DNA from: an uncultured SAR116 cluster alpha proteobacterium
Lineage (GTDB): Bacteria > Pseudomonadota > Alphaproteobacteria > Puniceispirillales > Marisalimonadaceae
Direction: 5' to 3'
Length of the DNA stretch: 35,375 nucleotides
Assembly (NCBI GenBank): GCA_902543145.1
Contig: CACBXG010000012.1
Span: 1-35,375, forward strand
Made by a program: the position numbers and the translations under genes. Shown here one piece after another: positions 4,509 through 24,871 of this stretch; within the stretch, counting starts at the first letter, position 1, and every line of letters starts with the position of its first letter. The notes below the pieces were generated by a model that searched no databases, was not told the origin of the DNA, and saw only the letters and a list, made by a program, of their open reading frames with translations.

Positions 4509-4565
4509 TGGTAGCGGAGGAGAGACTTGAACCCCCGACACCCGGATTATGATTCCGGTGCTCTA
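4509..4565 (-). repeat. tRNA-Met 3' fragment, left attachment site of the island
   Basis: Identical at 56 of 57 positions to 24795-24851 of the intact tRNA-Met, covering the CCA end, acceptor 3' strand, T arm, anticodon arm (CAT) and the 3' side of the D stem. The one difference is at 4523 (A versus G at 24809). Similarity stops abruptly after 4565. It lacks the 5' half and cannot make a tRNA. Confidence 0.9.
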
Positions 4566-4618
4566 TACTTATAACTCTTTGTTTAATAACAATATTTTTG
4601 CTAATGTAAATTAGCTGC

Positions 4619-4634
4619 CACATCTCCGTCACAA
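4619..4634 (+). repeat. Left copy of 16-bp end repeat, probable integrase arm site
   Basis: CACATCTCCGTCACAA, identical to 24701-24716 near the other end of the island and in the same orientation. Together with the next bases it also forms a small hairpin (CTCCGT-CACA-ACGGAG) directly upstream of the integrase ribosome binding site, so integrase binding could also affect int expression. Confidence 0.6.
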
Positions 4635-4647
4635 CGGAGGGAAAATA

Positions 4648-5604
4648 GTGGCTAGTTTTCGTAAAAGAAATAACTTATGGCAAGTACAAGTAAGAAGCAA
4701 ATACATAGGTTCTATATCTAAATCATTTCATAGTAAATCAGATGCTCAGAAATGGGCGAAAGAACAAGAAGTCTTGATGCAGTGTGGTCAATGGTCAAGG
4801 AGCAAAGAACAATCATTCACTCTTCATTCTCTCATAACAAGATATAAAAATGAAATTACACCAAAGAAAAGAGGGTTCATTTCAGAAGATCAAAGGTTAA
4901 GAAGGTTACTTAAAGAAAAAGACCTTATGAAAATACCTTTAGAAAGACTCCACCCCCCTATTCTGGCTACTTTTAGAGACAGAAGACTAAAGGATGGAGT
5001 TCGAGCTTGTCAGTATGATCTAGTTTTGATTAGACATGCTTGGAATATTGCATCTATAGAATGGGGCTGGGACTTAGGTGATAATCCAGTTGAAAAAATT
5101 AGACTGCCTAAAAATAATCCTCCAAGAGAAAGACGATTAAAACCCGGTGAATATGAAAGATTGAAGAGAGCATCCTCTGAAACAAAGGTTTGGTATCTAT
5201 GGCCCATTATTGAATTTGCCATTGAAACAGGAATGAGACGAAGTGAGATCTTAAGTATGAAGTGGGAACATATTGGAATTGATAATCAAAGAGTCTTATT
5301 ACCACTAACAAAGAATGGTAGTTCAAGATGGGTGCCTCTTACTAAGAAAGCTATGGATATATTGGGCCAAGTTCCACGGACCACTGACCATGTGTTCCCT
5401 ATTACTGATGTGGCTTTAAGACAATCCTGGGAAAGGCTTCGTAATAGAGCTAACCTAATTAACTTTACTTTCCATGATTTAAGACATGAGGCCATATCAA
5501 GAATGTTTGAAAAAGGATTGAATGTTCCAGAGGTTGCATTAATTAGTGGGCACAAGACGGCTAGTCAATTATTTAGATATGTACAAGTTAATGCTAGGTT
5601 ATGA
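4648..5604 (+). CDS. int: Tyrosine recombinase / phage-type integrase
   Basis: A 318-aa integrase. The N-terminal about 60 residues (FRKRNNLWQVQVRSKYIG) form an arm-binding-type domain, followed by a SAM-like core-binding region and the catalytic domain. Catalytic residues visible: R in ETGMRRSE near 195, HDLRH near 277-281, H in SGH near 299-301, and the nucleophile Y311 in LFRYVQ. Only seven residues follow the tyrosine, shorter than usual. The final codons and the stop (5596-5604) are part of a 16-bp match to the tRNA-fMet anticodon arm. The start is GTG at 4648, chosen for the GGAGGG ribosome binding site six bases upstream. It lies beside the tRNA-Met fragment, as expected for an island integrase, yet its 3' end points to tRNA-fMet. 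Confidence 0.92.
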   Translation: MASFRKRNNLWQVQVRSKYIGSISKSFHSKSDAQKWAKEQEVLMQCGQWSRSKEQSFTLHSLITRYKNEITPKKRGFISEDQRLRRLLKEKDLMKIPLERLHPPILATFRDRRLKDGVRACQYDLVLIRHAWNIASIEWGWDLGDNPVEKIRLPKNNPPRERRLKPGEYERLKRASSETKVWYLWPIIEFAIETGMRRSEILSMKWEHIGIDNQRVLLPLTKNGSSRWVPLTKKAMDILGQVPRTTDHVFPITDVALRQSWERLRNRANLINFTFHDLRHEAISRMFEKGLNVPEVALISGHKTASQLFRYVQVNARL

Positions 5605-5819: not shown

Positions 5820-6197
5820 ATGAAAATTGCATATGTATTTAAAACTGATCAGTCCAGTACTTTTCAGTTAAATTCAATGATTTTACCACAATTAGAGCAG
5901 GGAAATCACATGGTTGATGTAATAGGAATGTTTTTCTTTGATGATAATATTTTATGTCTACAAAAAGGAAATGAATTTGGTGAACGATTAGCAAAAATAG
6001 CTAAAGAAAAAAATATGCTATTAATGGCTTGTGACCAATGTGCAGTTAGAAGAGGCTTTGCAGAAGGTACATTCGAACAATGTGGTAGTGGAGATGTTAA
6101 ACCTAAAGGAATGGTAGAGGGTGTTCAGGTAGGTTGTTTTCCACAACTATATCAAGCTTTAGGATCAAATCCCCCAGACCAAGTAATAACTCTCTAG
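5820..6197 (+). CDS. DsrE-family protein
   Basis: A 125-aa cytoplasmic protein. The N terminus MKIAYVFKTDQSSTFQLNSM and the glycine-rich end fit the DsrE/DsrF-like fold. A CDQC motif (C71, C74) lies where family members carry reactive cysteines, with further cysteines near 88 (EQCGSG) and 106 (VGCFPQ). DsrE-type proteins handle persulfide sulfur in sulfur-relay pathways or act in unknown redox roles; which applies here cannot be told. GGAG lies 7 bp before the ATG. It stands alone, convergent with the antiporter gene, behind a perfect palindrome, and looks like separate cargo. The organism's other sulfur genes (27-29 kb) are outside the island. Confidence 0.75.
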   Translation: MKIAYVFKTDQSSTFQLNSMILPQLEQGNHMVDVIGMFFFDDNILCLQKGNEFGERLAKIAKEKNMLLMACDQCAVRRGFAEGTFEQCGSGDVKPKGMVEGVQVGCFPQLYQALGSNPPDQVITL

Positions 6198-6438: not shown

Positions 6439-8007
6439 TTAATAATAATCCATATTTTTATTATTTTTTTGCATCTCGTTAATTATATTTGTAACACCTA
6501 TGCCAACGGCTTCGTAGGCATCATATATTTCATCTGCTCCTGAATTTTCTAATATTTTTGTATTTTCATTTGATCTTGTTGGGACTATGATTTTTCCTAT
6601 AAAGCCGTATCTTCTAGCTTGTAAAGTAGACCAATTTTGTGCATGAAATTCTGGTAATGCGAGTACAATAACTTTTAATTTTCCAAATCTTAATTTAGAC
6701 CAAAATCCTGGATCTTCAGCATCAGCGAATGCCACCCTGTTTCCTTCTGATAATTTATTTAAAGCTATTTCTGTATCAGCGTCAACGCCTACAACTTTTA
6801 TACCTTTCTCAGTTAATTTATTAAAAATTGAACTCCCAATTCTACCCATACCGACAATCATGATCTCAGCTTCTCCAAAAGTATGTGGTTGCTCATCAGG
6901 ATGATGTTTTTCTCTTTCAAATTTTATTAAAAAATTTTCAAGATATACAAAAATTTCATGAACATATTTATTCAACACGGAACCAATAATAAAGCTAATA
7001 CATACTGACAATACTAGAATAGCTAAAATCTTTTGGTCTATTATATTTAAATCATACCAATATGTAGCAACTATGAGACTAAATTCTGAATAAGTTATTA
7101 ATGAGATTGAAATTAAGAACGAAGAATATGCTCTCAAATTAAAGAAGATTAGTAGAAAAAATAAAGATAAAAATTTAACTACTAGCAATAAAATTAAGAA
7201 GAATGAATTTAAAATAATTTCCTGATTAAGATTTAATTTCATTCCAAGAGATACAAAAAATGCTACTAATAAAATCTCTCTTAAACTCCATATCTTTTCA
7301 CCTAATCTATCAGCAAATTTAATGTTTGATAACATCATTCCCATTATTAGGGCACCTAATTCTCCCGACAAACCAAGTTTTTCAAACAAATATCCTCCTA
7401 AAAAGAGACCAATTATTACAGAAGTAAGCAGTTGTAATTCTTCATTTGATTGTAGTTTTTCTAAAACGATTTTTACTATTGGGATGCATAAAGGAGTAAA
7501 TAAAAGAAGAAGTGTATAAAATGATAAATTAGTTTCATTTGTATAAAGTAATAAAAAAAGAGCTAAAATATCCTGAAAAATTAAAATTAAGATTGAGTTT
7601 CTCCCATGAAAAGAATTAATTTCTTTTCGATCCTCGAGAGATTTTGAGGCTATTACTGTGCTTGAAAAAGTTAAAATAATACAAAGCAAAATTTTTGCTT
7701 CGAAATCTATGTTTATATTTAATAAAATAAAATAAATTAGTGTTATTAATAAAGAATGGAGAAAAAAAACATTTAAAAAGCTTAAACTTAGAAATGAAGA
7801 AGGTTTTACCTTTAAGCCTATAGAAAAAAGTAATAATTCAACACCAATTTTTGAGGGTATTGACAAAATTTCATCATTATCTGAAAAACTTATGTATGAG
7901 AAGAAATATCCAGAGGTTATAAAACCAATTAAAATTGGTAATGATAAAACCTTGAAAATAAAACCAAAAAATAAAGCTCCACTCAACCAAATTAAGATCA
8001 AATCCAT
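6439..8007 (-). CDS. Kef-type monovalent cation:proton antiporter with RCK/TrkA-N domain
   Basis: A 522-aa protein. About the first 350 residues are a series of hydrophobic segments of the CPA2 Na+/H+ exchanger fold, including LGLSGELGALIMGMMLS, typical of the family. A short hydrophilic linker then leads to a Rossmann RCK_N domain with IVGMGRIGSS (the dinucleotide-binding GxGxxG, near 390) and an acidic VVGVDADTE strand. It would export potassium or sodium in exchange for protons at the inner membrane, gated by a nucleotide. KefB/KefC are longer (about 600 aa); this form lacks a clear RCK_C domain. It is monocistronic. The 245-bp gap upstream (8008-8252) shows no gene or clear signal. Confidence 0.88.
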   Translation of the reverse strand: MDLILIWLSGALFFGFIFKVLSLPILIGFITSGYFFSYISFSDNDEILSIPSKIGVELLLFSIGLKVKPSSFLSLSFLNVFFLHSLLITLIYFILLNINIDFEAKILLCIILTFSSTVIASKSLEDRKEINSFHGRNSILILIFQDILALFLLLYTNETNLSFYTLLLLFTPLCIPIVKIVLEKLQSNEELQLLTSVIIGLFLGGYLFEKLGLSGELGALIMGMMLSNIKFADRLGEKIWSLREILLVAFFVSLGMKLNLNQEIILNSFFLILLLVVKFLSLFFLLIFFNLRAYSSFLISISLITYSEFSLIVATYWYDLNIIDQKILAILVLSVCISFIIGSVLNKYVHEIFVYLENFLIKFEREKHHPDEQPHTFGEAEIMIVGMGRIGSSIFNKLTEKGIKVVGVDADTEIALNKLSEGNRVAFADAEDPGFWSKLRFGKLKVIVLALPEFHAQNWSTLQARRYGFIGKIIVPTRSNENTKILENSGADEIYDAYEAVGIGVTNIINEMQKNNKNMDYY

Positions 8008-8252: not shown

Positions 8253-8645
8253 CTAGCTTTTAACTTCGAGAATTTTAATCATAAAATCATATAAACCAGG
8301 ACCCTTTTTATCCACAGCATCCCTAATCGTGAGATGGATGTTATTTGGATTTTTTCCATCCAACATTATCATTTTCTGTCCACCTGTAAAATTAGCTTTA
8401 GACAGTTTTAGGGGGATATTTTCAATGATCAACTTCAAGCGCTCGATATTGTCTCTTAGCCATTTCTTTTCAAGATCTTCTTCCCCAGCTGGGAATATAT
8501 ATCGTCGGTCAACCAATTGTTTTATGTGAAGAACACGCTCAGCAATTTCCTGAAGTTTTGAATAGCCACCAATAACACTAACTGCGTCTCTTATGTCACG
8601 ATTAAATCCACTGCCGTCAGCACGAATCTTTGGGTTTGGGGGCAT
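8253..8645 (-). pseudogene. C-terminal piece of the carboxyltransferase, out of frame
   Basis: A 130-aa frame starting MPPNPKIRADGSGFNRDIRD. Read upstream of its ATG it continues as PQLPFYAM back to the C9 tract at 8665-8673. With one extra C the tract would join it in frame to the 8591-10159 gene (TPPPQLPFYAMPPNPK). It is therefore the lost end of that protein, not an independent gene. It is helical, with an IERLKLIIENIPLKL segment. It has no biotin-attachment MKM motif, so the rebuilt protein would lack a biotinyl domain. Separate translation from the internal ATG cannot be excluded. Confidence 0.75.
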
Positions 8646-10159
8646 CGCATAAAATGGTAATTGAGGGGGGGGGTGTCTGGCGAGTTACATTCATTAGCGA
8701 CGCTAAGTATATGCCCTATTGCCTTAAATGATCCTGAATCCTTAAGCAGTGAGGCAGAAATATTCTGACGTAACGTTGGCTTTAGCAAACCAACTTCGAC
8801 TAATTTTTCTTCAGCAATTGGGATGCCATTAGGGCGATCGACCGCCTTCGTATACTTTTCTGAAGTCTTCAGATTAAGTTGCTTTAAAGCTTTTGTTATT
8901 AGCTTTTTGCTGGTGCTAGATGGAACTTTTCCATGACGTCCTACAAGATAATCAGCAATGCCAGGATAAAGAGAATGGTATTTGTCACGGCCTTCTAACT
9001 GATTCCAGAGTGATAGTGCAGCTTGACCAGTAGTATTTGCTGCATAAGGGGTAACTTGGGTTGGTTGGCCAAGGTCTTCTAAAATTTCTGCTTGCATTTT
9101 ATATATTGCAATCTGGATTTGGTCCCAATCAGCATGATGACCATCCACTCCTAAAAGACGTCCAAGATTCTCAACCAGTCCAGGTATTGATTTGAGTGTT
9201 GCAGACGCCCCACCAGGTGTGCGTGCGTAGTACATTGCTTCTACAAGTTTAGAATTATAACGTGACTCGAAATCACGATATTGAAAACGCAGCCCATAAA
9301 GGGAAGACATACTAGCCTTGATAGCATCGTTATTTAATTGTGGGGATTTTGTTGCAACTCTTTCATCAGGATAGTTCCTAATAAGGTTTAACATCTTGTT
9401 CATGCTTGGTTGCGCTGTTGACCCTGAAAGAGCTGGATGTTGTACATCCATTGTTATGTCCTTATTTAACTCCACTGCTGCCAAAACCGCAGCCATGTAA
9501 CAGACAGGGGCCTCACCATAAGTGGAATGTGCGTGAATGTTTACTTCATGGTCAGGAAAACGCTTATATAATGCTGATACAAGTTCATATACGAAATAGG
9601 CGCTTAATCTACCACTGGCAGATTTCAAATAAAATCCTTTATGGCCAAGTTCTACAAGTTCATCAGCAAAAGCAAGACATCTGGCAACAGTTATGTTTGG
9701 ATTATCTTCAATGCAAATTGTTCCCTGTGCTAAAATATCATAACCTGCATCTTGGGCTTCTGCTACAGCTTGAGCAACACCGGAAAGACATGATGCATCA
9801 TTAAGGCCATGAAAATTCTGCAGGATATTCATTCCCATACTAGCATACTCAAAAACTAGCGCTCTTATTACATCATAAGGTTGAGGCTCATAACCAAGAA
9901 GAAAATCTCCACGTATAAGGGCAGATTGCCTCACCCCAAGACTTTTAAAATGTAAAAGCAATTTTTCAACTTCTGCCCATTCATTTCGTCCTTTCTTGGC
10001 AAAAATATCAAAAAATGTACCCCCACCCGTTTGAATCGATTCAGTACCAATCAGATGTGCAGTTGGATAAGAATCTATGATTTCCTGTGCAGACGGGTTA
10101 GTTCCAAATAAAGACTGAATAGAATCGCGTAAAACGTCTTGGAATTTTATTTTTGACAT
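8591..10159 (-). CDS. Pyruvate/oxaloacetate carboxyltransferase-domain protein, frameshifted near its 3' end
   Basis: Related to pyruvate carboxylase subunit B and oxaloacetate decarboxylase alpha (HMGL-like TIM barrel). Visible marks are FQDVLRDSIQSLFGT at the start (family form LRDxxQS), the metal-binding HAHSTYGEA near 214-222, YLKSASGRL near 176-184 where the family has the carboxylated lysine in KDMAG, and QHPALSGSTAQPSM near 240. A PYC-type middle domain follows (about 290-490). The family moves a carboxyl group between biotin and pyruvate/oxaloacetate, but no biotin domain is encoded and no carboxylase partner is nearby. Codons after the C9 tract (about the last 30 here) are the wrong frame. 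The gene is visibly richer in G+C than its neighbours, suggesting separate acquisition. Confidence 0.82.
   Translation of the reverse strand: MSKIKFQDVLRDSIQSLFGTNPSAQEIIDSYPTAHLIGTESIQTGGGTFFDIFAKKGRNEWAEVEKLLLHFKSLGVRQSALIRGDFLLGYEPQPYDVIRALVFEYASMGMNILQNFHGLNDASCLSGVAQAVAEAQDAGYDILAQGTICIEDNPNITVARCLAFADELVELGHKGFYLKSASGRLSAYFVYELVSALYKRFPDHEVNIHAHSTYGEAPVCYMAAVLAAVELNKDITMDVQHPALSGSTAQPSMNKMLNLIRNYPDERVATKSPQLNNDAIKASMSSLYGLRFQYRDFESRYNSKLVEAMYYARTPGGASATLKSIPGLVENLGRLLGVDGHHADWDQIQIAIYKMQAEILEDLGQPTQVTPYAANTTGQAALSLWNQLEGRDKYHSLYPGIADYLVGRHGKVPSSTSKKLITKALKQLNLKTSEKYTKAVDRPNGIPIAEEKLVEVGLLKPTLRQNISASLLKDSGSFKAIGHILSVANECNSPDTPPLNYHFMRCPQTQRFVLTAVDLIVT
8665..8673 (-). other. C9 homopolymer tract (G9 on the plus strand) at the frameshift
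   Basis: Nine consecutive G on the plus strand at the exact point where the coding frame switches between 8591-10159 and 8253-8645. Adding one base, or removing two, restores one frame of about 630 codons. It is the only such G/C run that I notice in this AT-rich window. Confidence 0.85.
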
Positions 10160-10466: not shown

Positions 10467-11483
10467 TTATTTTGTTTGAATTAACTTAATTGCATTAGCA
10501 GTTTCAACTACAGTCTTTTTAAAAGGCATTGGTCTCCATTTGAAAGTTTTAATTGTACTTGAATTATCTGCAGTAATTTTTATTCCTAATAATGCTAGCA
10601 TACCTTTTGCTTCACGATCAAATAAAGATAAAAATTTGAATAAAAAATTTGGTGCTTTTTTAGTACTTGGGCCTTTGTAACCTTCATTTAAAAGTAATTG
10701 TGCAACTTCAGCAAAACTCACAGGATTTGTTCCAGAAGCTATAAATCTTTTTCCAGCAACTTTTGAATTTGTTAGAGCTTGTACATGTAATTTTGCTACA
10801 TCTCTAACATCTACCATAGGAAAAGCAGCATCTGGTACCATAGGTATTTTACCATTTAGAACTTTAGAAAGTATAGTTAATGATTCGCAAGAGATGTTAT
10901 CCCCAAGAGGGGGGCCAAACACTCCTCCTGGAGCAATTACAACTAATTCCATTTTAGATATTTTTTTATTTTCATTTATAAAATCCCAAGCTGATCTTTC
11001 TGCAATAGTTTTGCTTCTTATATACGTATTTAGATTAGGATAATTTAGATCAGTCCAATCTTTGGGGCCAAACTGACCACGACGAATACTTGACATCATT
11101 GAGACAATTGAACTTGTTAAAACTACTCTTTTTATTCCTGCTTTTTGTGAAGCTTCCAACACACGTCTTGTTCCTTCAACAGCAGGTGATATCATATCAT
11201 TTTCATTCTTGGGATTTGCAATTCTAAATGGTGATGCAACATGCATAACATATTCGCAATCTTGAATTGCTTTATCCCAACCATTGTTATAAGTCAGCTC
11301 TAATATTTCGAATGTAAGATTTTTTAAATTTATATCATTTTTTTTGAATGTATTAATAACTTCTTCTCTTTTAGCAGAATTACGTACAGTACCTATTACT
11401 TTATAACCTTTTTCTAGTAATTCCTTAGCGCAATAAAGTCCTATGAAACCAGATATTCCCGTAACTAAAACTGTTTTTGACAT
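10467..11483 (-). CDS. NAD(P)-dependent epimerase/dehydratase, dihydroflavonol-4-reductase-like extended SDR
   Basis: About 338 aa from the ATG at 11483. MSKTVLVTGISGFIGLYCAK carries the extended-SDR cofactor motif TGxxGFIG. HVASPF near 85-90, VVLTSSIVSMM near 120, and the active-site YIRSK (YxxxK) near 160 match the DFR / cinnamoyl-CoA-reductase-like subgroup, as does the APGGVFGPPLG loop. The substrate is unknown; bacterial members reduce various aldehydes and ketones. A TTG at 11498 would add five residues, but the conserved fold begins directly after the ATG. The 93-aa barrel-like protein lies 45 bp upstream on the same strand, so the two may be co-transcribed. Confidence 0.85.
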   Translation of the reverse strand: MSKTVLVTGISGFIGLYCAKELLEKGYKVIGTVRNSAKREEVINTFKKNDINLKNLTFEILELTYNNGWDKAIQDCEYVMHVASPFRIANPKNENDMISPAVEGTRRVLEASQKAGIKRVVLTSSIVSMMSSIRRGQFGPKDWTDLNYPNLNTYIRSKTIAERSAWDFINENKKISKMELVVIAPGGVFGPPLGDNISCESLTILSKVLNGKIPMVPDAAFPMVDVRDVAKLHVQALTNSKVAGKRFIASGTNPVSFAEVAQLLLNEGYKGPSTKKAPNFLFKFLSLFDREAKGMLALLGIKITADNSSTIKTFKWRPMPFKKTVVETANAIKLIQTK

Positions 11484-11528
11484 AGATAAATTTCTCAAAT
11501 TAATTAAACTAAAATTTTCCTGCTACAA

Positions 11529-11810: not shown

Positions 11811-12166
11811 AAGAATTCCTTTCTAAATTTATAAATTATTTAGACACATTTATTGTTTTGAATGCTAATTATTTTATTAAAAAATTATATATTTATGACG
11901 TTTTGCAATTAATTAAGTCATAATTGACTGAATGAAAGATTGAAATTTACTTAACCATTTGAAACTGAAATTTCTCAGGACCAAAGTGCACTCATCCAAT
12001 ATGAACAAATCAAGTAATAAAAGAATCTATTGAAAATTTAATGTTATCTAAAAAATACAGATAAAAACCTGACGACCGGTTGGTATTAAGAATAAAAATT
12101 ACAATGAAAAACCCAAAAACCGAAGTCTTTAAGGGTGATCTAAGTTATTGATTTTATTGATACAGT

Positions 12167-12222: not shown

Positions 12223-12240
12223 GTTCACCGATCAAACAAG

Positions 12241-12279
12241 GGTTACTGCACCCTTTTACTAATCAACAATGGTCAATGG
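12241..12279. repeat. 39-bp direct repeat, left copy
   Basis: 37 of 39 positions match 21379-21417 in the same orientation; the shared core includes CTGCACCCTTTTACTAAT and AACAATGGTCAATGG. It lies 18 bp after the tRNA-fMet fragment. The two copies bracket the 9.1-kb block that carries urtABCDE. Confidence 0.85.
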
Positions 12280-15593: not shown

Positions 15594-17606
15594 ATGAAGT
15601 ACTTATTAATTATTTTATTTTCATTATTAAGTTTCAATTCTGCATTTTCAGAAGAGAACTTTGACAATTTTTTATTTAAAAACTCTAAACTGATTATAAA
15701 TAGTTCTTCAAAAACAGTTGGAACATTTTTAGAAAAAATAAATGTTTATGATCAAAACACCGTATCAAGATTTTTAAATCTCTGGAAAAATAAAAAATTA
15801 TTTTACATAAAAGAAACAAAAAAAATTGTACTAATTTCCAAGTTTGATAATAAAACATATTACGCAATTGATATTTTTTCCAACGCTAAAATTGGAAAAA
15901 AGAAAAAAAAAGATTTCAAAAAAATAAAACCGAATAGTGGTGTAAGGGCAAAGATTGCAACTGCACTTGTGAACTTTCAAATATTTAGTAATGATAAAAA
16001 TAAAAGAATAAATAGCATAAATGCTCTTGAAAAAAAAATATTACCTGAACATTTAAAACTCCTTAGAAAAGCATTTTTATTAGAGGAAGATGATAGGTTA
16101 AAAATTAAAATAAAAAAATTATTACAATTTGCAATTTTACAACATGGAACTGACGATAAAGAGAAAATTAAAGTTCTGAATGAATTAAAGACTAATACTT
16201 CAATAGAAGTAAGAGCAGTTTTGTCAAAACTCCTAAGGACATCTGAAATTAAAGTTACTAGAAATATTGAAGATTTAAATAATTTAAATATTGCTCAAAT
16301 AATTAAACCAGAAGTAATTAGTAAAAAACAATTCGGTGAAGTTATAAAAAGTTTTTTCTATAAAGAAAACTTAAAACTTAGTGTTATTGATGCTTACAAA
16401 ATAGCACAAAAAAATGGATTTTTAGATAAGAGAGTCAGTTTAAATGAATTAAAATTAATTTTAGAAAATAACATTGTTGACAATAAAATTTTAGGAATTG
16501 ATATAAAGGAATTTAATGAAAATTCTAAAAGAATCGAAGTTTATAATAAATTAGCCAAGATAAAAAATCTTAATATTTATCGAGATGAAACAGAATTATT
16601 AAATGATTTAAAACAACTACATTTTTACAAAATTTACATTGAGAAAAATAAATACATAACAAACAAGACTAAACAAGTTTTAGATTCAATTAATTTTAAA
16701 GTTAAATTCTATAAGTATTTAGATTTATTTATTGATGGTCTTAGTCTTAGTTCTATATATTTTCTTGGTGCTATTGGCTTGGCAATAACATTTGGAGTCA
16801 TGCGTGTGATTAATATGGCTCACGGTGAATTTATAATGATGGGAGCTTATACTGGCTATGTTGTTCAATCATATATTACTAATCATACATTATCTCTGAT
16901 AATAGCTTTTCCTCTCGCTTTTATAATTACTTTTATTGCAGGGGTTATAATGGAAAGGTTGGTGATAAAACATTTATATAAAAATCCTCTTGATACTTTG
17001 CTAGCAACTTTTGGTATAAGTATAGCTCTTCAACAACTTGCTAAAAATATTTTTGGTACTCAGGCTAGACCTTTAACATCACCTTCTTGGTTAGATGGAT
17101 CTTTAATAATAAATGATGATCTTTCGATAAGTTACATTAGGATAGCTATATTTGTTTTGGGAGTTTTATTTTTTTTGATATTATTATTTGTAATGAAAAA
17201 AACTAGATTTGGATTAGAAACTAGATCCGTAACTCAAAACCCTGTAATGGCATCGAACATGGGTGTTAACACTGAAAAAATAAATATGTTAACTTTTGGT
17301 TTTGGGTCAGGCATTGCTGGTGTTGCTGGTGTTGCTATAGGTTTGTTTTCCAAGGTCACATCTGAACTTGGCTCAGAATACATTGTTCAAAGTTTTATGA
17401 CAGTTGTAGTTGGTGGTGTAGGAAGTATTTGGGGTACACTTGCAGGCGCTTCATTAATTGGCTTTTTACAAAAGTTTATAGAATGGTTTAATCCTTCTAA
17501 TACATTAGCTGCTCAAACATATATGATTATATTTATAATTTTATTTATTCAATTTAGACCAAGGGGATTAATTGCCTTAAAAGGGAGAGCAGCAAATGAT
17601 AACTGA
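15594..17606 (+). CDS. urtB: Urea ABC transporter, permease UrtB with long N-terminal domain
   Basis: A 670-aa protein. After a signal-like segment (MKYLLIILFSLLSFNSAFS) comes a hydrophilic, lysine-rich region to about residue 375 with HEAT-like helices (VRAKIATALV, VRAVLSKLLR), presumably periplasmic. From about 377 the LivH-type permease follows: DGLSLSSIYFLGAIGLAITF, GVMRVINMAHGEFIMMGAY, later AGVAGVAIGLFSK and VVVGGVGSIWGTLAGA. UrtB proteins usually carry such an N-terminal domain, but most have a total of about 520-550 residues; here it is well over 100 residues longer. It forms the channel with UrtC. The stop overlaps the urtC start by 11 bp. Confidence 0.93.
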   Translation: MKYLLIILFSLLSFNSAFSEENFDNFLFKNSKLIINSSSKTVGTFLEKINVYDQNTVSRFLNLWKNKKLFYIKETKKIVLISKFDNKTYYAIDIFSNAKIGKKKKKDFKKIKPNSGVRAKIATALVNFQIFSNDKNKRINSINALEKKILPEHLKLLRKAFLLEEDDRLKIKIKKLLQFAILQHGTDDKEKIKVLNELKTNTSIEVRAVLSKLLRTSEIKVTRNIEDLNNLNIAQIIKPEVISKKQFGEVIKSFFYKENLKLSVIDAYKIAQKNGFLDKRVSLNELKLILENNIVDNKILGIDIKEFNENSKRIEVYNKLAKIKNLNIYRDETELLNDLKQLHFYKIYIEKNKYITNKTKQVLDSINFKVKFYKYLDLFIDGLSLSSIYFLGAIGLAITFGVMRVINMAHGEFIMMGAYTGYVVQSYITNHTLSLIIAFPLAFIITFIAGVIMERLVIKHLYKNPLDTLLATFGISIALQQLAKNIFGTQARPLTSPSWLDGSLIINDDLSISYIRIAIFVLGVLFFLILLFVMKKTRFGLETRSVTQNPVMASNMGVNTEKINMLTFGFGSGIAGVAGVAIGLFSKVTSELGSEYIVQSFMTVVVGGVGSIWGTLAGASLIGFLQKFIEWFNPSNTLAAQTYMIIFIILFIQFRPRGLIALKGRAANDN

Positions 17607-18765
17607 CATGAATAAATCTGTAAAAAAACATTCGCTGATTTTTTTAATAACTATTTTTTTATTTACGTTGTTAGTCACCTTTTTAAGTGAACCTTTTGGT
17701 ATAAACTTTATATCAACAAGCTTTGTAAAAGTCCTTGGAAAAACTCTTTGCTTATGTATTGCTGCAATTGCTATGGATGTTGTGTGGGGGTATTGTGGTA
17801 TTTTATCCTTAGGTCATTTTGCTTTTTTTGGCTTAGGTGGATACATGATAGGCATGTGGTTAATGTATGAGAGAACGTCTATTATTGTATTGAATTCTTT
17901 AGATGACTCACAATTACCCTTTACTGAGATAGAATTACAAGAAGCGATAGGTAATCAAATTTTTGGTGTTGTTGGTGGAACAGAAATACCACTTATTTGG
18001 ACATTTGCAGATAATTTATATTTTCAAATAATTTTTGTTATTTTAATCCCTGGTTTAATAGCATTTATTTTTGGTTGGCTAGCTTTTCGTTCAAGAGTAA
18101 CTGGAGTATATTTGTCAATTTTGACTCAAGCAATGACCCTAGCTTTATCTTTATATCTATTTCAAAATGATAGCGGGTTAAGAGGAAATAACGGATTGTC
18201 TGGATTGCAAAATATTCCTCATCTTGAAAACTTAAGTCAATCTACAATTTCAATATTATTTTTATGGTTAAGTTCAATCGGACTCATATTTTCATTTGTA
18301 ATTTTTAATTATATAATTCAAAGTAAATTTGGATCAGTAATTACCGCTATCAGAGACAATGAAACGCGTCTTCGTTTTTTTGGATACAATGTAGAAATAT
18401 ACAAACTTTTTATATTTGTTATCACAGCCATAATTACTGGATTAGCAGGAGCTATATATTATCCTCAAGCTGGTATAATAAACCCAGCTGAGATTGCTCC
18501 TATTGCCTCAATATATTTAGCTGTCTGGGTTGCTATTGGTGGACGAGGAAAATTGTATGGTGCAATTTTAGGTGCAGCGTCTGTTTCTTTGCTATCCTCT
18601 TGGTTTACTGGAGGAAATGCTCCAAATATTCCCCTCGGTTTTTTTACAATTGAATGGGTGAATTGGTGGACTGTATTTTTAGGAATTGGTTTTGTGGCAA
18701 TAACAATTTTTAGTAAGGGTGGTTTAATTGGTATGCTAAATACATTATTGGTTAAAATCAAATGA
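17596..18765 (+). CDS. urtC: Urea ABC transporter, permease UrtC
   Basis: A 389-aa LivM-type permease with about 8-10 membrane segments. Visible marks are AMDVVWGYCGILSLGHFAFF near 55-75, GWLAFRSRVTGVYLSILTQA, FQNDSGLRGNNGLSGLQ (an NGLTG-type motif typical of UrtC) and AIRDNETRLRFFGYN (the EAA-like ATPase-contact loop). The ATG at 17596 overlaps the urtB end by 11 bp; a second ATG four codons on is possible. The stop overlaps the urtD ATG by 4 bp (ATGA). It pairs with UrtB in the inner membrane. Confidence 0.94.
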   Translation: MITDMNKSVKKHSLIFLITIFLFTLLVTFLSEPFGINFISTSFVKVLGKTLCLCIAAIAMDVVWGYCGILSLGHFAFFGLGGYMIGMWLMYERTSIIVLNSLDDSQLPFTEIELQEAIGNQIFGVVGGTEIPLIWTFADNLYFQIIFVILIPGLIAFIFGWLAFRSRVTGVYLSILTQAMTLALSLYLFQNDSGLRGNNGLSGLQNIPHLENLSQSTISILFLWLSSIGLIFSFVIFNYIIQSKFGSVITAIRDNETRLRFFGYNVEIYKLFIFVITAIITGLAGAIYYPQAGIINPAEIAPIASIYLAVWVAIGGRGKLYGAILGAASVSLLSSWFTGGNAPNIPLGFFTIEWVNWWTVFLGIGFVAITIFSKGGLIGMLNTLLVKIK

Positions 18766-19502
18766 AAACGTTGTTAGAAGTTGATAATGTTTCAATCTCT
18801 TTTGACGGTTTTAAAGCAATAAAAAATTTAAGTTTTTCAATAGGGTATAATGAATTACAAGCCATTATTGGACCAAATGGCGCAGGGAAAACTACTTTTA
18901 TGGATATAATTACAGGTCAAACAAAGCCAGATAATGGACATATTTTATGGGGAGAAAAAAGCATTGATCTAATCAGAAAAACAGAATCAGAAATAGCATT
19001 ACTTGGTATTGGACGAAAATTTCAAAAACCTACGGTATTTGAAAATAAAACAATTATTGATAATTTAATTTTATCTCAGAAAAAAAATAGAAATCCATTT
19101 AAGGTTTTATTTCAAAAAAATACAAAATCTGAGCTTACAAGCATTGAAAAAATTTTAAAAGATATAAATCTTTACATGATTAAAGATAGAATTGCTGGTG
19201 AGATTAGCCATGGTCAGAAGCAATGGTTAGAGATTGGGATGCTTTTAAGCCAAAATCCAAAATTAATGCTCATTGATGAACCTGCTGCAGGCATGACACC
19301 AACTGAAAGAAATCAAACAGTTAGTATTTTAAAAAATATTGCAAAATCTAGTTCAATTATTGTGGTTGAACATGATATGGAGTTTGTACGTAATTTAAAT
19401 TGTCGAGTAACAGTACTTAATGAAGGTAGCATTCTTTCTTCTGGTTCAATTGACTTTATAACTCAAAATGAAAAAGTCATAGAGGTTTATTTAGGAAGAT
19501 AA
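18762..19502 (+). CDS. urtD: Urea ABC transporter, ATP-binding protein UrtD
   Basis: A 246-aa ABC ATPase with Walker A GPNGAGKTT near 38-46, GIGRKFQKPTVFENKTIIDN (a Q-loop form typical of UrtD), ABC signature ISHGQKQWLEIGM, Walker B LMLIDEPAAGMTP and switch VVEHDMEFVR. The SHGQKQWLEIG form and the AAGMTP ending separate UrtD from LivG. Translationally coupled to urtC by a 4-bp overlap. It powers urea import together with UrtE on the cytoplasmic face. Confidence 0.95.
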   Translation: MKTLLEVDNVSISFDGFKAIKNLSFSIGYNELQAIIGPNGAGKTTFMDIITGQTKPDNGHILWGEKSIDLIRKTESEIALLGIGRKFQKPTVFENKTIIDNLILSQKKNRNPFKVLFQKNTKSELTSIEKILKDINLYMIKDRIAGEISHGQKQWLEIGMLLSQNPKLMLIDEPAAGMTPTERNQTVSILKNIAKSSSIIVVEHDMEFVRNLNCRVTVLNEGSILSSGSIDFITQNEKVIEVYLGR

Positions 19503-19504: not shown

Positions 19505-20200
19505 ATGCTTGATGTTAAAAAAATAAATTTAAATTATGGCTCTTCTCAAATCTTGTTTGATGTTTCAATAAAAGCCAAAAAAGGCAATATAACATGCTTA
19601 ATGGGATCAAATGGCGTAGGTAAAACTTCTTTACTTAAATTTTTGTCTGGAATACAAAATGCAAAAAATGGAACTTATTTCTATAATAACAATGATATAT
19701 TTAATCTTCCATCTTACAAACTGGCAAAATTAGGAATTGGATACGTTCCTCAAGGAAGAGATATATTTCCCCTTTTAAGTGTTAAAGAAAATTTAGAAAT
19801 TGGATTTGCATGTTTGAATAAAAAAAATTGGTTTATCCCTGATGAAATATTTAACTTATTTCCAATATTAAAAAAAATGCTTCATAGGAGAGGTGGAGAT
19901 TTGTCTGGAGGACAACAACAACAGTTGGCTATTGCAAGAGCACTTGTTGCAAAACCAAGTTTATTATTGATGGATGAGCCTACTGAGGGTATTCAACCGA
20001 ATATAATTAAACAAATAGGCGAGGTAATCTTATATTTAAAAAAAGAAAAAAAAATTACAATATTTTTAGTCGAACAATATTTTGATTTTGCATTTAATCT
20101 TTCTGATTATTTTTATGTAATGCAAAGGGGGAAAATAATTATAGAAGGAGATAAAGAAAAACTAGGTAAAAAATTACTTAAATCTCAATTAAGTTTTTAG
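19505..20200 (+). CDS. urtE: Urea ABC transporter, ATP-binding protein UrtE
   Basis: A 231-aa ABC ATPase with Walker A GSNGVGKTS near 34-42, GYVPQGRDIFPLLSVKENL Q-loop region, signature LSGGQQQQLAIARALV, and Walker B LLMDEPTEGIQPNIIKQIG. The GRDIFP and TEGIQP forms are marks of UrtE rather than LivF. It begins 2 bp after the urtD stop. Its last 12 bp overlap the 3' end of the convergent LysR gene, so the two transcripts can pair at their ends. Confidence 0.95.
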   Translation: MLDVKKINLNYGSSQILFDVSIKAKKGNITCLMGSNGVGKTSLLKFLSGIQNAKNGTYFYNNNDIFNLPSYKLAKLGIGYVPQGRDIFPLLSVKENLEIGFACLNKKNWFIPDEIFNLFPILKKMLHRRGGDLSGGQQQQLAIARALVAKPSLLLMDEPTEGIQPNIIKQIGEVILYLKKEKKITIFLVEQYFDFAFNLSDYFYVMQRGKIIIEGDKEKLGKKLLKSQLSF

Positions 20201-21076
20201 TTGGTTAATTTCGTCAATCAAAAATTTTTTGAAAGCCTTTAATCTTTGGTCATCTTTTAAATGATATTTATAACATAATGAAATATTTAATTTTGGACCC
20301 TTTAATTCAGATAATATTTCTTCTAAATTAATAAAACTTTCCATCCAACTAGGTAAAGAAGATATACCTACCGAGTTTTGAGTAGCTTCTACAATGCCGT
20401 GAATATTTGAAATTTCTAATATTGGATTTCTAATATTATTTTTTTCTCTTCCAATATTTAGCAACCAATTTAATCTATTTCTGTTTAGAGGTGGTTGAGC
20501 AGTTTCTCCATAGGCAATTATTTTGTGATAATCTAATTCATCTACTGTTTTAGGAACTCCAAATTTTTTTATATATTCTTTAGAAGCATATATTTTATAT
20601 CGGAATTCTGAAATTTTGATTTGAACGTCATCTTGTGAATTACTTTCTGTCATCCTAATTTCTAAGTCAGAGGCGTAGTGTAAAACTTTAGGCTCAGAAT
20701 CTCTTAAGTTTAATGCAATTTGTATTTTAGGATATTGTAATAAAAATTTATTTATCCTTGGTGTAATCCAAAGCGCGCCAAAAGCATTTGTTGCAGCAAT
20801 CTTTAGCTTTCCAATTGGTTCGGATGAAGAAGAAAAGTTTGTTAAATTTTCAATTTGTGAAGAAACTTTATTTACTTCTTTATATAATTCCTGACCTTCT
20901 GGTGATAATGACAAACCTTTTGAATTTCGAAAAAAAAGTTTTGTTTTAATTTCACTTTCTAAAATACTAATTTGTCGGCTTAGGGATGAATGACTTATAT
21001 TCATTATTTCAGAAGCTCTTTTCAAATTAAGAGTTTGAGAAACAATATGAAAATATTTTAAACGATCCCATTTCAT
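20189..21076 (-). CDS. LysR-family transcriptional regulator
   Basis: A 295-aa protein. An N-terminal winged HTH (MKWDRLKYFHIVSQTLNLKR, then ISHSSLSRQISILESEIKTK and LFFRNSKGLSLSPEGQELY) is followed from about residue 90 by the periplasmic-binding-like effector domain (KLKIAATNAFGALWITPRIN). The ligand and targets are unknown. LysR genes usually control a divergent neighbour; here that is the HGGASTGP side, with a 430-bp gap, while the convergent urt operon overlaps its 3' end. Control of urt is possible but not shown by position. The start ATG has no clear Shine-Dalgarno. Confidence 0.9.
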   Translation of the reverse strand: MKWDRLKYFHIVSQTLNLKRASEIMNISHSSLSRQISILESEIKTKLFFRNSKGLSLSPEGQELYKEVNKVSSQIENLTNFSSSSEPIGKLKIAATNAFGALWITPRINKFLLQYPKIQIALNLRDSEPKVLHYASDLEIRMTESNSQDDVQIKISEFRYKIYASKEYIKKFGVPKTVDELDYHKIIAYGETAQPPLNRNRLNWLLNIGREKNNIRNPILEISNIHGIVEATQNSVGISSLPSWMESFINLEEILSELKGPKLNISLCYKYHLKDDQRLKAFKKFLIDEINQLKT

Positions 21077-21232: not shown

Positions 21233-21378
21233 AATAAAATTAAAATGAAATTATTTTGAAAAACTATTAAATTTATATTATAAGTGAACATCTTTTAATC
21301 ATTTGATTTTTATAATATAATGATCATTAGATAATTAATTAACAAAAATTTTATATTGAAAATTCTAATTTTAACTGA

Positions 21379-21417
21379 GGTTGCTGCACCCTTTTACTAA
21401 TTAACAATGGTCAATGG
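21379..21417. repeat. 39-bp direct repeat, right copy
   Basis: Matches 12241-12279 at 37 of 39 positions, same orientation. The similarity stops on both sides. It lies 90 bp before the HGGASTGP gene. Confidence 0.85.
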
Positions 21418-21506
21418 TCCATGATTTTATTTTAAGTAATGTAAATATATTAAACTAAGTTTACCATATCTTTTAAGCTTACATTAATTTTGTTATAATA
21501 AAACCC

Positions 21507-21881
21507 ATGTTAGGTGGTTTTAAAAAGACAACAAAAAGAAACCTTTTAAAAGGCATACCCTGGCGTTTTGGCCCTAACTGGCCTGGTAAAAGATGTGAAG
21601 CCAAAACTAGAAAAGGTACACCTTGTCAACGTCCAGCTAAACTGCCAGTAGGTCGATGCAGACTTCATGGAGGTGCTAGCACTGGTCCAAGGACTGAAGA
21701 AGGCCTAAAAAGATTAGCAGATTCTAAAACTAAACATGGACGCTTTACAAAGATTGAAAGAGAAAAAGCTAAAGCTAGAGCAGAGCAAGGGAGAATAATT
21801 AGAAGTCAACTAAAAGAACTCGAAGCTTGGTTCATTGACCACGGACATTTGAAAAAGAATTGGCGAAAAGATTGGGCATAG
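21507..21881 (+). CDS. HGGASTGP-motif phage-type protein
   Basis: A 124-aa basic protein. A CEAKTRKGTPCQRPAKLPVG stretch with two cysteines leads to CRLHGGASTGPRTEEGLKRL, the HGGxSTGP motif near 50-58. A helical, charged C-terminal half follows (EREKAKARAEQGRIIRSQLK), ending HLKKNWRKDWA. Proteins with this motif occur in phages, satellites and prophage-like islands, often near packaging genes, but their role is not established. The two-cysteine and histidine arrangement could bind a metal. It is convergent with the primase gene; the two ends are separated by a possible hairpin. No clear ribosome binding site precedes the ATG. Confidence 0.75.
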   Translation: MLGGFKKTTKRNLLKGIPWRFGPNWPGKRCEAKTRKGTPCQRPAKLPVGRCRLHGGASTGPRTEEGLKRLADSKTKHGRFTKIEREKAKARAEQGRIIRSQLKELEAWFIDHGHLKKNWRKDWA

Positions 21882-21892: not shown

Positions 21893-21984
21893 AGAGGTGT
21901 AGAGGTGTAGATTATTTTCCTTAAAAATTTGTTCAATGTTAGTTTTTAAAAAAGTTTTTAAGATTATATCTGCACCCCTACACC
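21893..21984. terminator. Inverted repeat between convergent HGGASTGP and primase genes
   Basis: A tandem AGAGGTGT-AGAGGTGT (21893-21908) provides GGTGTAGAGGTGTAG (21896-21910), which pairs at 13 of 15 positions with CTGCACCCCTACACC (21970-21984), the latter overlapping the primase stop. The 59-nt loop is long, so simple termination is uncertain. Confidence 0.3.
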
Positions 21985-24245
21985 AACTGCTTGTATCTGA
22001 TATAGTTAGAATGTTTGTCCCTACCCATTTCAAGCTCTACATCATCCCTAACTAATTGCCTAATCCTTTGTGCAAATCGATTTCTAGTTGGGACATATTG
22101 ACCATCTCCTATTTCTTCCATGTGTGTTTTAAATTTTGAATATGCATCAGTAATTCCTACTTTTTTATTTTTACGAGCATCTAACAATTCATGAAGATAA
22201 TTTTCCTTAAACCAATATAATATTGAGTCTGAATCTTCAAACCATTGAGTTGTAGACTGTTCAACTACACTTGGGATGATGAAGCCATCATTTTCAATAA
22301 CATCCAATGCCCCTTTTATAGCGAACTTAAACAATTCATCTTTTTCATATAAAACTATTTTTTCAGCAATTCTTGGCACTCTCTCTTTCATAGGAATAGA
22401 TCGATCGAATGGTATAACTTTTACCCTTCTGTTAATTCCTTCATCTACTCCTCCCTTGAAATTAGGGAGAACATTGGTTGCAAATATGTGGATCGCATTT
22501 GGTTTAAATGAACATACTGGTTTATAAACCTTTTTACCTGACACGGTATCACCAGTTACAACTGCTTTAAGTTTGTTTGATCTTATTGCATTAGCCCCCA
22601 ATAATTCGTCAGATAAATTTGCCATTTTACCAACTAATTCTATTAAATACTGTTCTTTGCCTAAATCAGCTGGGGGTATAGATGAACAAGCATTTTTGGG
22701 TAGAAGAGACCGTATTAATTCTAAGATCTGTGACTTACCATTAGATGCAGAAGGGCCATATAAAACAAAACATATTGGAGTTGACAATTTTGTTGCAATC
22801 CCAGTTATACTTACCCCTAATATTTGTTGAATGAGTCTTATCAGTTGGGTTTTGATGATTTCATCTAAACTCATAAAACAACCGTTGATTAGTTTCCTAA
22901 GATAACCAGAAAGTATAAAATCTTCATCATCCCATTTGGCATCAAATACAAATCTTTGTTTATGATTTGGATCATGTTGCAACAGTTTAGTTTTTTTATC
23001 GTAAGACATCTCTAAAAAACCATTCTTACAGTTCACTCCCATTGGTTGATCTTCAAAGAATCCTGGCTCAGAACACATTGACATTAATTCGTGAAGGCAG
23101 CCATCTATGAACTGTTTACTTACTTGAATCAATTTGCCAGATTTGGTTTTCTTTTGATCTAATTCGTGGACTAACTGTCTTAAGTCACTATCAGGGATAA
23201 TCTTCCAACACAAACCATTATATTTCCAAAGTTCCCCCTCATCGTAGACTGGTATTGGACCTTCTAATTCAAATTGCTTTTTTAGATATTTTGCTATTGA
23301 AGTGTGTGTATTACTCTCAATTTCAAAAATACCACCTCCTTGCCAACCATTTTGGGTTGCAAGTTTAAATATATATCTTTTGTCAATTTTTTCTGGATTG
23401 AATGAATTCCATTTTTCTTTGTTAAACTCTTTATTTTGATAATTAGGGCATGGAGAACCATCTATTTTATATTTTGACCAATCATCAAAGATTTCAAACC
23501 CATCTCCTTTAAAAGTTTTTTTAAGAGCAAGGCCTATATTTACCCATGTATTATAATCTTCAGGATCTATATAGCTTAAGGCACTCCGTACTAAAGGAAT
23601 ATCCTTAATACCCTCTTCCCTTTTGTGTTCATTTATAGATGTCTTTATTGTTGATATTTTAACTTCTTTTTGTACAACATGGTTTTGTAATAGCGTTTCA
23701 GATTGAGTAATAATATTTTTCACTTGTTTAAGGGTTACACATGGAAGATCCTCACTGTGCACCTCTAAGGGACTTTCATCAATCCATTGATAAGATTGTT
23801 TTGTTTCTGGGTGAGTTCCAAAAATTATACATTGTGTGCCACTAGCTAATACTTCTAATTGAGCTTTTCCTTTTTCAAGATTAAAAATTTTAGTAGATTT
23901 TTTTCTAAATTCATCTCCACTTCTTCTATAAAACAATGCTCTCTTTGGAAATTTTCCAATTCTTTCTATCGTATCACCCAGTTCACGAATAATTATGTCT
24001 CTAATAAGAAGGCTTTGTTTGTCATCTAGAATATCTATATCAAATACAATTAAATCATTTAATAGAACACCCACACCTGCATGTGGGTATTCTAAGGATA
24101 GTTTCTCAATTTGGGCATAATCATTCTTGATGCTTGACCAATTTTTAATGCTTGGCCTTTTTGTTGCTGGAATGATTGGGATTGGAATATAGCCATTTTC
24201 ATGTAACTTTAAAGCTGCATTGCCGTAAGACTGTAAAGATGGCAT
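21978..24245 (-). CDS. Primase-polymerase / SF3 helicase replication protein (phage P4 alpha-like)
   Basis: A 755-aa multidomain protein. Residues about 1-170 are a prim-pol domain: GYIPIPIIPATKRPSIKNWS, and the metal-binding pair D69/D71 in VFDIDI. About 215-290 is a PriCT-2-type segment (SALSYIDPEDYNTWVNIGLA). A D5_N-like region follows, and then a superfamily 3 helicase with Walker A GPSASNGKS near 492-500, a NLSDEL acidic motif, a VVTGDTV segment and IHIFATNVLPNF sensor. It ends with a winged-helix-like region. It would start and unwind replication of the excised element. Its ATG overlaps the alpA stop by 1 bp, so the two are co-translated. The gene is full length, with no breaks. Confidence 0.9.
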   Translation of the reverse strand: MPSLQSYGNAALKLHENGYIPIPIIPATKRPSIKNWSSIKNDYAQIEKLSLEYPHAGVGVLLNDLIVFDIDILDDKQSLLIRDIIIRELGDTIERIGKFPKRALFYRRSGDEFRKKSTKIFNLEKGKAQLEVLASGTQCIIFGTHPETKQSYQWIDESPLEVHSEDLPCVTLKQVKNIITQSETLLQNHVVQKEVKISTIKTSINEHKREEGIKDIPLVRSALSYIDPEDYNTWVNIGLALKKTFKGDGFEIFDDWSKYKIDGSPCPNYQNKEFNKEKWNSFNPEKIDKRYIFKLATQNGWQGGGIFEIESNTHTSIAKYLKKQFELEGPIPVYDEGELWKYNGLCWKIIPDSDLRQLVHELDQKKTKSGKLIQVSKQFIDGCLHELMSMCSEPGFFEDQPMGVNCKNGFLEMSYDKKTKLLQHDPNHKQRFVFDAKWDDEDFILSGYLRKLINGCFMSLDEIIKTQLIRLIQQILGVSITGIATKLSTPICFVLYGPSASNGKSQILELIRSLLPKNACSSIPPADLGKEQYLIELVGKMANLSDELLGANAIRSNKLKAVVTGDTVSGKKVYKPVCSFKPNAIHIFATNVLPNFKGGVDEGINRRVKVIPFDRSIPMKERVPRIAEKIVLYEKDELFKFAIKGALDVIENDGFIIPSVVEQSTTQWFEDSDSILYWFKENYLHELLDARKNKKVGITDAYSKFKTHMEEIGDGQYVPTRNRFAQRIRQLVRDDVELEMGRDKHSNYIRYKQLV

Positions 24246-24454
24246 TATAAATCTCCATCATCACGTCTTATTTCCATTTCCATAAGCCAATCATCTATTT
24301 CAGAACACCTCCATAATCTTGTTTTAGATGAGGGTTTAATAGGTTTTGGAAAATCTTTATTCTTCATCCAATCTTTAATTGTTTCTGAAGTAACCCCAAA
24401 AAATTTAAGGATTTCTTTTCCATTTACATATGTTTTATTTTCAAATAGTGCCAT
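24245..24454 (-). CDS. AlpA-type excisionase / transcriptional regulator
   Basis: A 69-aa HTH protein. NGKEILKFFGVTSETIKDWM is the MerR-like helix-turn-helix, followed by KDFPKPIKPSSKTRLWRCSE, which matches the AlpA signature FPxPxxxxxxxxxW, and by EIDDWLMEME. AlpA of satellite elements acts as an activator of integrase expression or directly as an excisionase. A strong GGAGG lies just upstream of the ATG. The stop overlaps the primase start, so regulator and replication protein form one operon. It lies 340 bp from the intact tRNA-Met at the island's right end. Confidence 0.9.
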   Translation of the reverse strand: MALFENKTYVNGKEILKFFGVTSETIKDWMKNKDFPKPIKPSSKTRLWRCSEIDDWLMEMEIRRDDGDL

Positions 24455-24794
24455 CGTGGCCTCCTTTTAATTAGATTAAAAAAACAGGCATCGATTTTTT
24501 AAGATGAGATTCAACTTCTACGATGTTCACTGAAGTTGTTGCATACTGATTACGCTAGTATGGCAGCGAGGTGCCCTCACCGAGCATATACATTATATCA
24601 GGTCCAGAATCGCTAGAAAAGGCCCTATTTAGATTTTTTTTAATTTTTTTTTAAGTTATTGGATTTACTAAAAAGGAGATAAAAATTAATTAAAACCGGT
24701 CACATCTCCGTCACAATTGCTTTGACTTTTATGAAAAATCCTGAGATTCTATAATTATAACAAGTGAGGTGTGGCTTATTATTCAAAAGGTTAT
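24455..24794. other. Right end region of the island
   Basis: 340 bp without a gene. It contains the alpA promoter region, long T/A runs near 24636-24654, an orphan AAAAAGGAGAT, the 16-bp end repeat at 24701-24716 and unique sequence up to the tRNA-Met. Confidence 0.5.
24701..24716 (+). repeat. Right copy of 16-bp end repeat, probable integrase arm site
   Basis: CACATCTCCGTCACAA, an exact match to 4619-4634. In the circular form the two copies would flank the tRNA-Met core on opposite sides, as P and P' arm sites do. Confidence 0.6.
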
Positions 24795-24871
24795 TGGTAG
24801 CGGAGGAGGGACTTGAACCCCCGACACCCGGATTATGATTCCGGTGCTCTAACCAGCTGAGCTACTCCGCC
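24795..24871 (-). tRNA. tRNA-Met (CAT), elongator type, intact
   Basis: A 77-nt cloverleaf including encoded CCA: GGCGGAGTAGCTCAGCTGGT opens the acceptor and D arms, CCGGA-ATCATAA-TCCGG is the anticodon arm (anticodon CAT), GTCGGGGGTTCAAGTCCC covers the variable loop and T arm, and CTCCGCTACCA closes it. The first pair is G-T. The pairs match elongator tRNA-Met rather than initiator; a tRNA-Ile with modified CAT is less likely. It is the integration target of the island and lies 65 bp downstream of the VOC-family gene. Confidence 0.93.

Follow-up and report, generated by a model that had tools for sequence, protein, structure and literature searches.

A tRNA-Met island of about 20 kb lies on a contig of an uncultured alphaproteobacterium of the SAR116 cluster (GenBank assembly GCA_902543145.1, contig CACBXG010000012.1); the whole stretch analysed, 35,375 nucleotides, is called the window here and corresponds to contig C12 of genome G000 (1.9 Mb, 69 contigs, 76% complete). 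We compared it with a genus set of 40 genomes, a family set of 58 genomes and an outgroup of 78 other genomes of the order, with genomes and contigs designated by G and C numbers. An initial annotation, made from the sequence alone, had placed an integrase at one end of the island and AlpA, a primase/helicase and a HGGASTGP protein at the other, and family profiles bore this out (PF00589, PF05930, DUF5906 and NF041373, respectively). The DUF5906 domain of the primase (PF19263) scored 46.5 bits against a cut-off of 27.6, and the reading frames of int, primase and alpA are all open in the window. The full urtABCDE operon claimed for the interior was likewise recovered, with UrtA, UrtB, UrtD and UrtE above the NCBIfam cut-offs and UrtC just under its own, which was still the best match (Table 1). 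A family scan of the island open reading frames (ORFs), which took in some but not all of the short ones, yielded no capsid, terminase, relaxase or conjugation families, in agreement with the absence of capsid and conjugation genes first noted; several small ORFs had no match at all. The genes inside the island were thus as claimed, but remnants of a junction repeat (~12240-12279, 13939-13982 and 21376-21423) and a second, different tRNA-Met 3' fragment (~12160-12230) had been overlooked.

The 3' part of tRNA-Met is duplicated at both island ends, as first described: 57 of the 77 tRNA bases recur at 98% identity with an E value of 7.9e-22 within the genome, so that the duplication is not due to chance. 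Core copies of 57-60 bp were also present at the integrase end in G038, G018, G013, G012 and G039. In the window, the distance of a 16-mer, CACATCTCCGTCACAA, is 94 bp to the start of the core (AlpA side) and 54 bp to its end (integrase side); the 16-mer was found at both island ends in G038, G013, G018 and G012 with nearly constant spacing to the core; its placement suggests that it is probably an arm site of the integrase. The flanking genes are conserved in the genus (o4168, GFA and a glycosyltransferase on the left; a glyoxalase-like gene and mnmA on the right), and a census of the 18 genomes, window included, with both flanks on one contig piece revealed the empty sites and alternative cargo that the initial annotation had anticipated in relatives. 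The site was empty in four genomes (G011, G003, G002 and G016), with 108-295 bp between the tRNA and the left flank and no repeated core; int, AlpA and primase occurred together in four (G000, G012, G018 and G038), spanning 16-28 kb and with differing cargo; two carried int remnants (G001 and G007) and eight other DNA of 1.9-13 kb. When the window flanks were joined in silico they aligned across the junction in G011, and also in G016 except for a ~190-bp stretch further upstream, while in the empty sites of G002 and G003 the DNA adjoining the tRNA had diverged from the joined flanks. The island of G013 is split across two contigs, and one G004 contig stops within alpA next to the tRNA. We consider integrase-driven integration at tRNA-Met to be well supported. 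Several tRNA-Met cores were seen at one locus in G012:C3 (L096, 182-239 and 3174-3221), G031:C13 (L206) and G001:C8 (L188), and these loci read as stacked or decayed insertions.

Nine further genomes have a primase at least 81% identical at the amino acid level, a partial one in a single case. In G038, G013, G018 and G034, primase and alpA are 97-100% identical to those of the window although the core genes diverge, indicating that the backbone itself moves. The 97% identical primase of G034 adjoins tRNA-Phe (C8, L092), as do the 81% relatives in G032:C6 (L098), G019:C40 (L102) and G028:C62 (L103), and the HGGxSTG protein accompanies this tRNA-Phe-side module in L092, L098 and L102. Identity between the window and G034 drops off between alpA and the tRNA, and the replication module has therefore been paired with different attachment ends. 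Broken copies also occur, in which the primase has an in-frame stop or is split in two frames, or the integrase contains stops (G048:C53 L010, G072:C4 L106, G018:C3 and G038:C6).

The urt cassette (~7.4 kb) was about 99.5% identical in several species, in contexts that differ. At 4-fold sites, urt and lysR of the window genome were 98.7-99.2% identical to those of G038, G013 (urtC-E and lysR only), G020, G022, G005 and G024, compared to 63.3-73.4% for the core genes beside the tRNA in G038, G013, G020 and G022, the four genomes for which both were measurable, supporting the proposed spread of urea uptake by horizontal transfer. The cassette is located in the tRNA-Met island of G000, G038 and the right half of G013, in the tRNA-Ser(gga) island of G020 and G022, and on other contigs in G005, G024, G004 (a fragment) and, beside a copy of KefB, G003. 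A second genus of the family has a 94-97% identical urt in G043 and G046, where a nearly complete junction repeat lies upstream of it, and a partial version with no visible repeat in G053. Since urt operons of the same order occur at 77-78% in G049, G052 and G056 of this genus, the second genus may be a source of the cassette. Carriage of urt by a mobile tRNA-Met element holds for G000, G038 and G013, but since urt also occurs outside the satellite, in tRNA-Ser islands and another genus, the cassette moves independently of the island and is often itself the mobile unit, rather than the island. The reading of the island as a carrier of nutrient cargo is supported.

We also read 24 urease-adjacent loci. 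Native urt was intact in four (G001, G008, G021 and G035) and cleanly missing, with a junction of 34-47 bp, in 14 of the 24, or 14 of the 20 decidable loci, the other four being undecided at contig ends, two of them with native-type urt genes. In G036:C4 (L286) and G026:C5 (L295) only a urtE remnant is left, probably an intermediate of the loss; together with the occurrence of native urt in both subgroups, this points to loss of the operon. Mobile urt was found in 8 of the 14 clean-loss genomes (G000, G003, G004, G005, G013, G020, G022 and G038, with partial copies in G003, G004 and G013), as opposed to none of eight genomes with native-type urt (G001, G008, G021, G035, G029, G031, G033 and G039), an association with a Fisher p of 0.018, uncorrected for kinship and drawn from incomplete genomes. 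According to the available text of one study, 60% of South Pacific Gyre SAR116 genomes contain urea-use genes (PMC11366302).

Comparison of the island with its relatives showed that a ~100-bp junction repeat marks the cargo borders. It was detected in 32 of the 40 genus genomes and 45 of the 58 family genomes, and outside the family in one of the 78 other genomes of the order, as a 23-bp match. A profile run on 74 contig pieces, many chosen because they hold the repeat, identified 74 copies or half-copies on 34 pieces, and neighbouring repeats 0.2-12 kb apart (median 4.9 kb) were co-oriented in 37 of 38 pairs. Only the left flank was common to 39 repeat pairs, only the right to 35 and both to 14, counts in which the pairs are not independent and one pair with both flanks in common represents overlapping hits in G028. 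Of 119 breakpoints in alignments of at least 96% identity between genomes, 33 coincided with a repeat, compared to 2.2 expected and a maximum of 7 in 500 random placements, and 25 of 36 repeat-to-repeat intervals recurred in another genome (at least 50% coverage and at least 93% identity). The urt interval measures 7,368-7,376 bp in five arrays. Another interval of 6.5 kb, recurring at 94-99.7% in G038, G013, G018 and G022, encodes a FecCD and Peripla_BP_2 transporter, an ABC ATPase, DUF1636, Fur and CobW, and is probably a zinc-uptake cassette. It lies to the right of urt in G038 and is missing from the window, which retains a single hybrid junction, similar on its left side to the urt side of G038 and, from the first repeat bases on, to the backbone side of G038. 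As read from these alignments, cassettes are swapped at the junction repeats. Of the 34 repeat-bearing pieces, 19 hold a tRNA gene, and on six (G000:C1, G020:C2, G022:C1, G037:C1, G037:C10 and G035:C4) a repeat is found no more than about 100 bp away from one, a count without random control. The last ~48 integrase codons recur just 3' of junction repeats elsewhere, each copy beginning near codon ~271 (L187 5317-5463 and 15615-15767, L190 5942-6212, L191 11958-12089 and L186 3561-3711).

The cargo of the window is listed in Table 1. The tRNA-Met from which the inner fragment derives follows the 5S rRNA in G035:C4, and the fragment adjoins a junction-repeat remnant; the cargo next to it was probably imported from another tRNA hotspot. 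The cassette of three small ORFs matches six other genomes at 93-99% nucleotide identity over 71-100% of its length, and lysR adjoins urtE in the mobile-type copies reaching that far (G038, G013, G005, G024, G020, G022, G003 and G046). Cargo varies among the islands, with urt in G000, G038 and the right half of G013 (part of urtB to urtE), the ABC-transporter/CobW/Fur cassette in G018, G038 and G013, and MMPL/LolA-like genes in G012. Outside the island, a 1003-aa ORF at 31097-34108 is weakly YhdP-like (28.8 bits, cut-off 46) and lies in a stretch of 20-28% G+C.

Table 1. Features of the tRNA-Met island, in window coordinates.
Feature	Position	Strand	Evidence or remark
Left attachment core, 57-bp duplicate of the tRNA-Met 3' part	4509..4565	-	98% to 24795-24851
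Probable integrase arm-type repeat CACATCTCCGTCACAA	4619..4634	+	exact copy at 24701
Tyrosine recombinase (integrase)	4648..5604	+	PF00589, E 1.4e-25; phrog_1
DsrE-like protein, cargo	5820..6197	+	PF02635 slightly under cut-off; 100% aa in G013
KefB/C-type cation:proton antiporter, cargo	6439..8007	-	PF00999 and PF02254
Conserved ORF	8253..8645	-	co-occurs with the OadA-like gene in G038, G035, G012
Pyruvate-carboxylase-B/OadA-like protein, cargo	8591..10159	-	every match below curated cut-offs
NAD-dependent epimerase/dehydratase, cargo	10467..11498	-	PF01370
3' fragment of a different tRNA-Met	about 12160..12230	-	the rRNA-linked one of G035
Junction-repeat remnant	about 12240..12290	+	centre missing
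One cassette of three small ORFs	12444-12704, 12771-13145, 13210-13827	-	junction remnants on both sides
Junction-repeat right half	13939..13982	+	left edge of urt cassette
urtA	14267..15538	+	TIGR03407
urtB	15594..17606	+	TIGR03409
urtC	17596..18765	+	TIGR03408 best match, 289.4 against cut-off 296.2
urtD	18762..19502	+	TIGR03411
urtE	19505..20200	+	TIGR03410
LysR-type regulator, in urt cassette	20189..21076	-	PF00126 and PF03466
Junction-repeat left half	21376..21423	+	boundary between urt cassette (to its left) and backbone (to its right)
HGGxSTG-domain protein	21507..21881	+	NF041373
Prim-Pol/PriCT_2/D5_N/DUF5906 primase-helicase	21978..24245	-	all domains above cut-offs
AlpA-family regulator/excisionase	24245..24454	-	PF05930, 29.9 bits (cut-off 21); phrog_66
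Second arm-type repeat CACATCTCCGTCACAA	24701..24716	+	match to int-side copy
Intact tRNA-Met(CAT)	24795..24871	-	core in common with left end, 24795-24851

We find it likely that these components form a two-level mobile system, in which an integrative satellite-type island is combined with cassette exchange at the junction repeats. At the first level, an island of the order int, cargo, HGGxSTG, primase/helicase and AlpA would recombine its tRNA-Met core with the 3' end of the host tRNA-Met, and its gene content suggests that it may be excised on an AlpA trigger, replicate itself and be packaged by a helper phage. At the second level, the cargo would consist of 1-11 kb cassettes in a single orientation, separated by the family-specific ~100-bp repeat and gained, lost and re-ordered by recombination between repeats, here and in arrays beside other tRNA genes; RecA-type homologous recombination probably performs this exchange. 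The urt-lysR cassette would have spread by repeat exchange among species and between two genera and, going by family membership, would supply urea uptake to cells with a chromosomal urease but without native urt.

Several observations weigh against this system. Two of the four int-alpA-primase islands (G018 and G038) have a broken integrase, and urt islands of 20-28 kb are large for a satellite. All three junction repeats in the window are degenerate, and the window copy may therefore no longer exchange cassettes. Away from any repeat lie 86 of the 119 alignment breakpoints, 11 of the 36 repeat-to-repeat intervals are not shared, and the array counts stem from a non-random sample of pieces largely selected by repeat content. 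Six of the 14 genomes that lost native urt show no mobile urt, at a completeness of 59-88%. With regard to phage carriers, the urt cassette had no near match among 50,697 phage records, and scans of IMG/VR with the primase, int and the repeat gave no relative, although records very near the window genome may be omitted from it. The phage-satellite-like element of the initial annotation thus holds for the int, AlpA and DUF5906 trio, as in the PICMI satellite model (PMC10803314, in the text available), but finds no relative in IMG/VR. Primase relatives were present in 764 phage records, all below 60% identity and aligned over less than 80% of the query, and one phage record matched the HGGxSTG protein above 30%.

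The alternative that survives best, although we regard it as unlikely, is an ordinary additive flexible island, in which tRNA-repeat insertions pile up, general recombination reshuffles them and the satellite genes are relics that phages do not transfer. The tRNA 3' fragments within the island, the tandem cores in G012, G001 and G031, the broken int copies and the cassette insertion at tRNA genes (repeat near a tRNA on 6 of 34 pieces) agree with it, and additive islands with tRNA-targeted cassettes are described for other marine bacteria in the accessible parts of PMC7771536, PMC10872708 and PMC5217437. However, int, primase and alpA keep open reading frames in the window, the arm repeats and their spacing are conserved, primase and alpA are nearly identical across G038, G013, G018 and G034 (97-100%) despite core divergence, and the cassette borders are a specific repeat unrelated to tRNA.

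Somewhat less probable still is a dedicated exchange system, with a recombinase acting on the ~100-bp repeat as the integron integrase acts on attC and homologous recombination blurring the record. The repeat between cassettes is long, strongly conserved and directional, cassette lengths are reproducible within a few bp, and in the event separating the window from G038, one crossover lies no more than about 10 bp from the 5' edge of the repeat; many hits span one repeat half, with ends often near positions 40 or 59, several of which represent the same junction by descent. In contrast, none of the 40 genomes had an integrase over the TIGR02249 integron-integrase cut-off, weaker, Xer-like matches being seen in 37 of them as well as in all 14 control genomes, and the repeat has no conserved fold, so that an integron was rejected. 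A conserved RNA or DNA hairpin was rejected as well: single copies folded at z values of only -0.6 to -2.1, and an alignment of 36 copies gave a consensus fold of 6 pairs with almost no covariation, so that compensatory changes do not maintain the hairpin. Nor did mismatch patterns support a fixed crossover base, crossovers being placed at varying positions (4 same-left and 13 same-right full-repeat pairs usable). An Rfam scan of L190, L187 and L191 gave rRNA, tRNA and two sub-threshold matches (one a tRNA fragment) and none on the repeat, excluding a known RNA family there. Since there is no integron integrase and no covarying fold, and crossovers vary along the repeat, the exchange is probably homologous recombination within the repeat, while a dedicated system was kept in consideration because the borders are reproducible and the arrays directional.

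We give hardly any weight to the near-identical urt copies being cross-contamination or an assembly artefact within one sequencing series, which five of six named primase-bearing relatives with AG-8xx isolate names (presumably a single-cell series) and the frequent contig ends at repeats might suggest, since urt is embedded in long contigs (G022:C1, 265 kb; G020:C2, 202 kb; G038:C6, 99 kb) between flanks specific to the species, its copies differ in single-nucleotide polymorphisms and contexts, and a 94-97% version is found in another genus.

Integron arrays of V. cholerae are directional and have a conserved ~100-bp repeat between cassettes, like the arrays here, which differ in having no integrase over the cut-off and no conserved fold, multi-gene cassettes and several tRNA loci. 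Phage satellites, tycheposons/VEIMEs and additive islands are established types of element, as far as the accessible portions of the literature describe them (PMC10803314, PMC11389934, PMC10872708, PMC7771536, PMC5217437 and PMC12416821). The PICMI model requires int, AlpA and a DUF5906 primase, with AlpA necessary and sufficient for activation, and its available text treats integration at fis as an optional marker in one place and fis as one of four mandatory genes in the methods (PMC10803314). The island shares with PICMI and P4-like satellites this trio (PF00589, PF05930 and PF19263) and the lack of visible capsid genes, but sits at tRNA-Met instead of fis and, at 14-28 kb, carries metabolic cargo where those satellites have a minimal gene set. 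With tycheposons and VEIMEs, as they are cited in PMC10803314, PMC11389934 and PMC10872708, it has in common a tyrosine recombinase at a tRNA gene with an attachment duplication and nutrient cargo varying between copies, but the host group is another one, and a ~100-bp junction repeat organises the cargo, which includes a urea-uptake cassette. Additive flexible islands similarly gain and lose cassettes at tRNA genes of marine bacteria (accessible text of PMC7771536, PMC10872708 and PMC5217437), whereas here most borders are formed by a conserved repeat unrelated to tRNA, and the arrays lie beside several tRNA genes. In the literature accessible to us, which is not searchable by sequence, no description was found of the junction repeat or of a urt cassette on such an element.

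A bolder possibility, which we advance only tentatively, is that this SAR116-cluster clade has a non-integron cassette system of its own, in which a ~100-bp directional site and a recombinase or element-encoded annealing functions would let tRNA-anchored satellite islands acquire, shed and trade nutrient-uptake cassettes, for urea and probably zinc, between species and genera. If true, such a system would turn a core trait mobile after loss of the native operon. The junction repeat makes the choice between general recombination and a dedicated enzyme testable for these arrays, and offers a sequence tag to follow the cassette trade of uncultured marine bacteria in metagenomes and virion DNA. 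For these abundant ocean bacteria, a nitrogen-uptake trait lost beside urease would be re-supplied from a shared cassette pool, partly on satellite-type islands.

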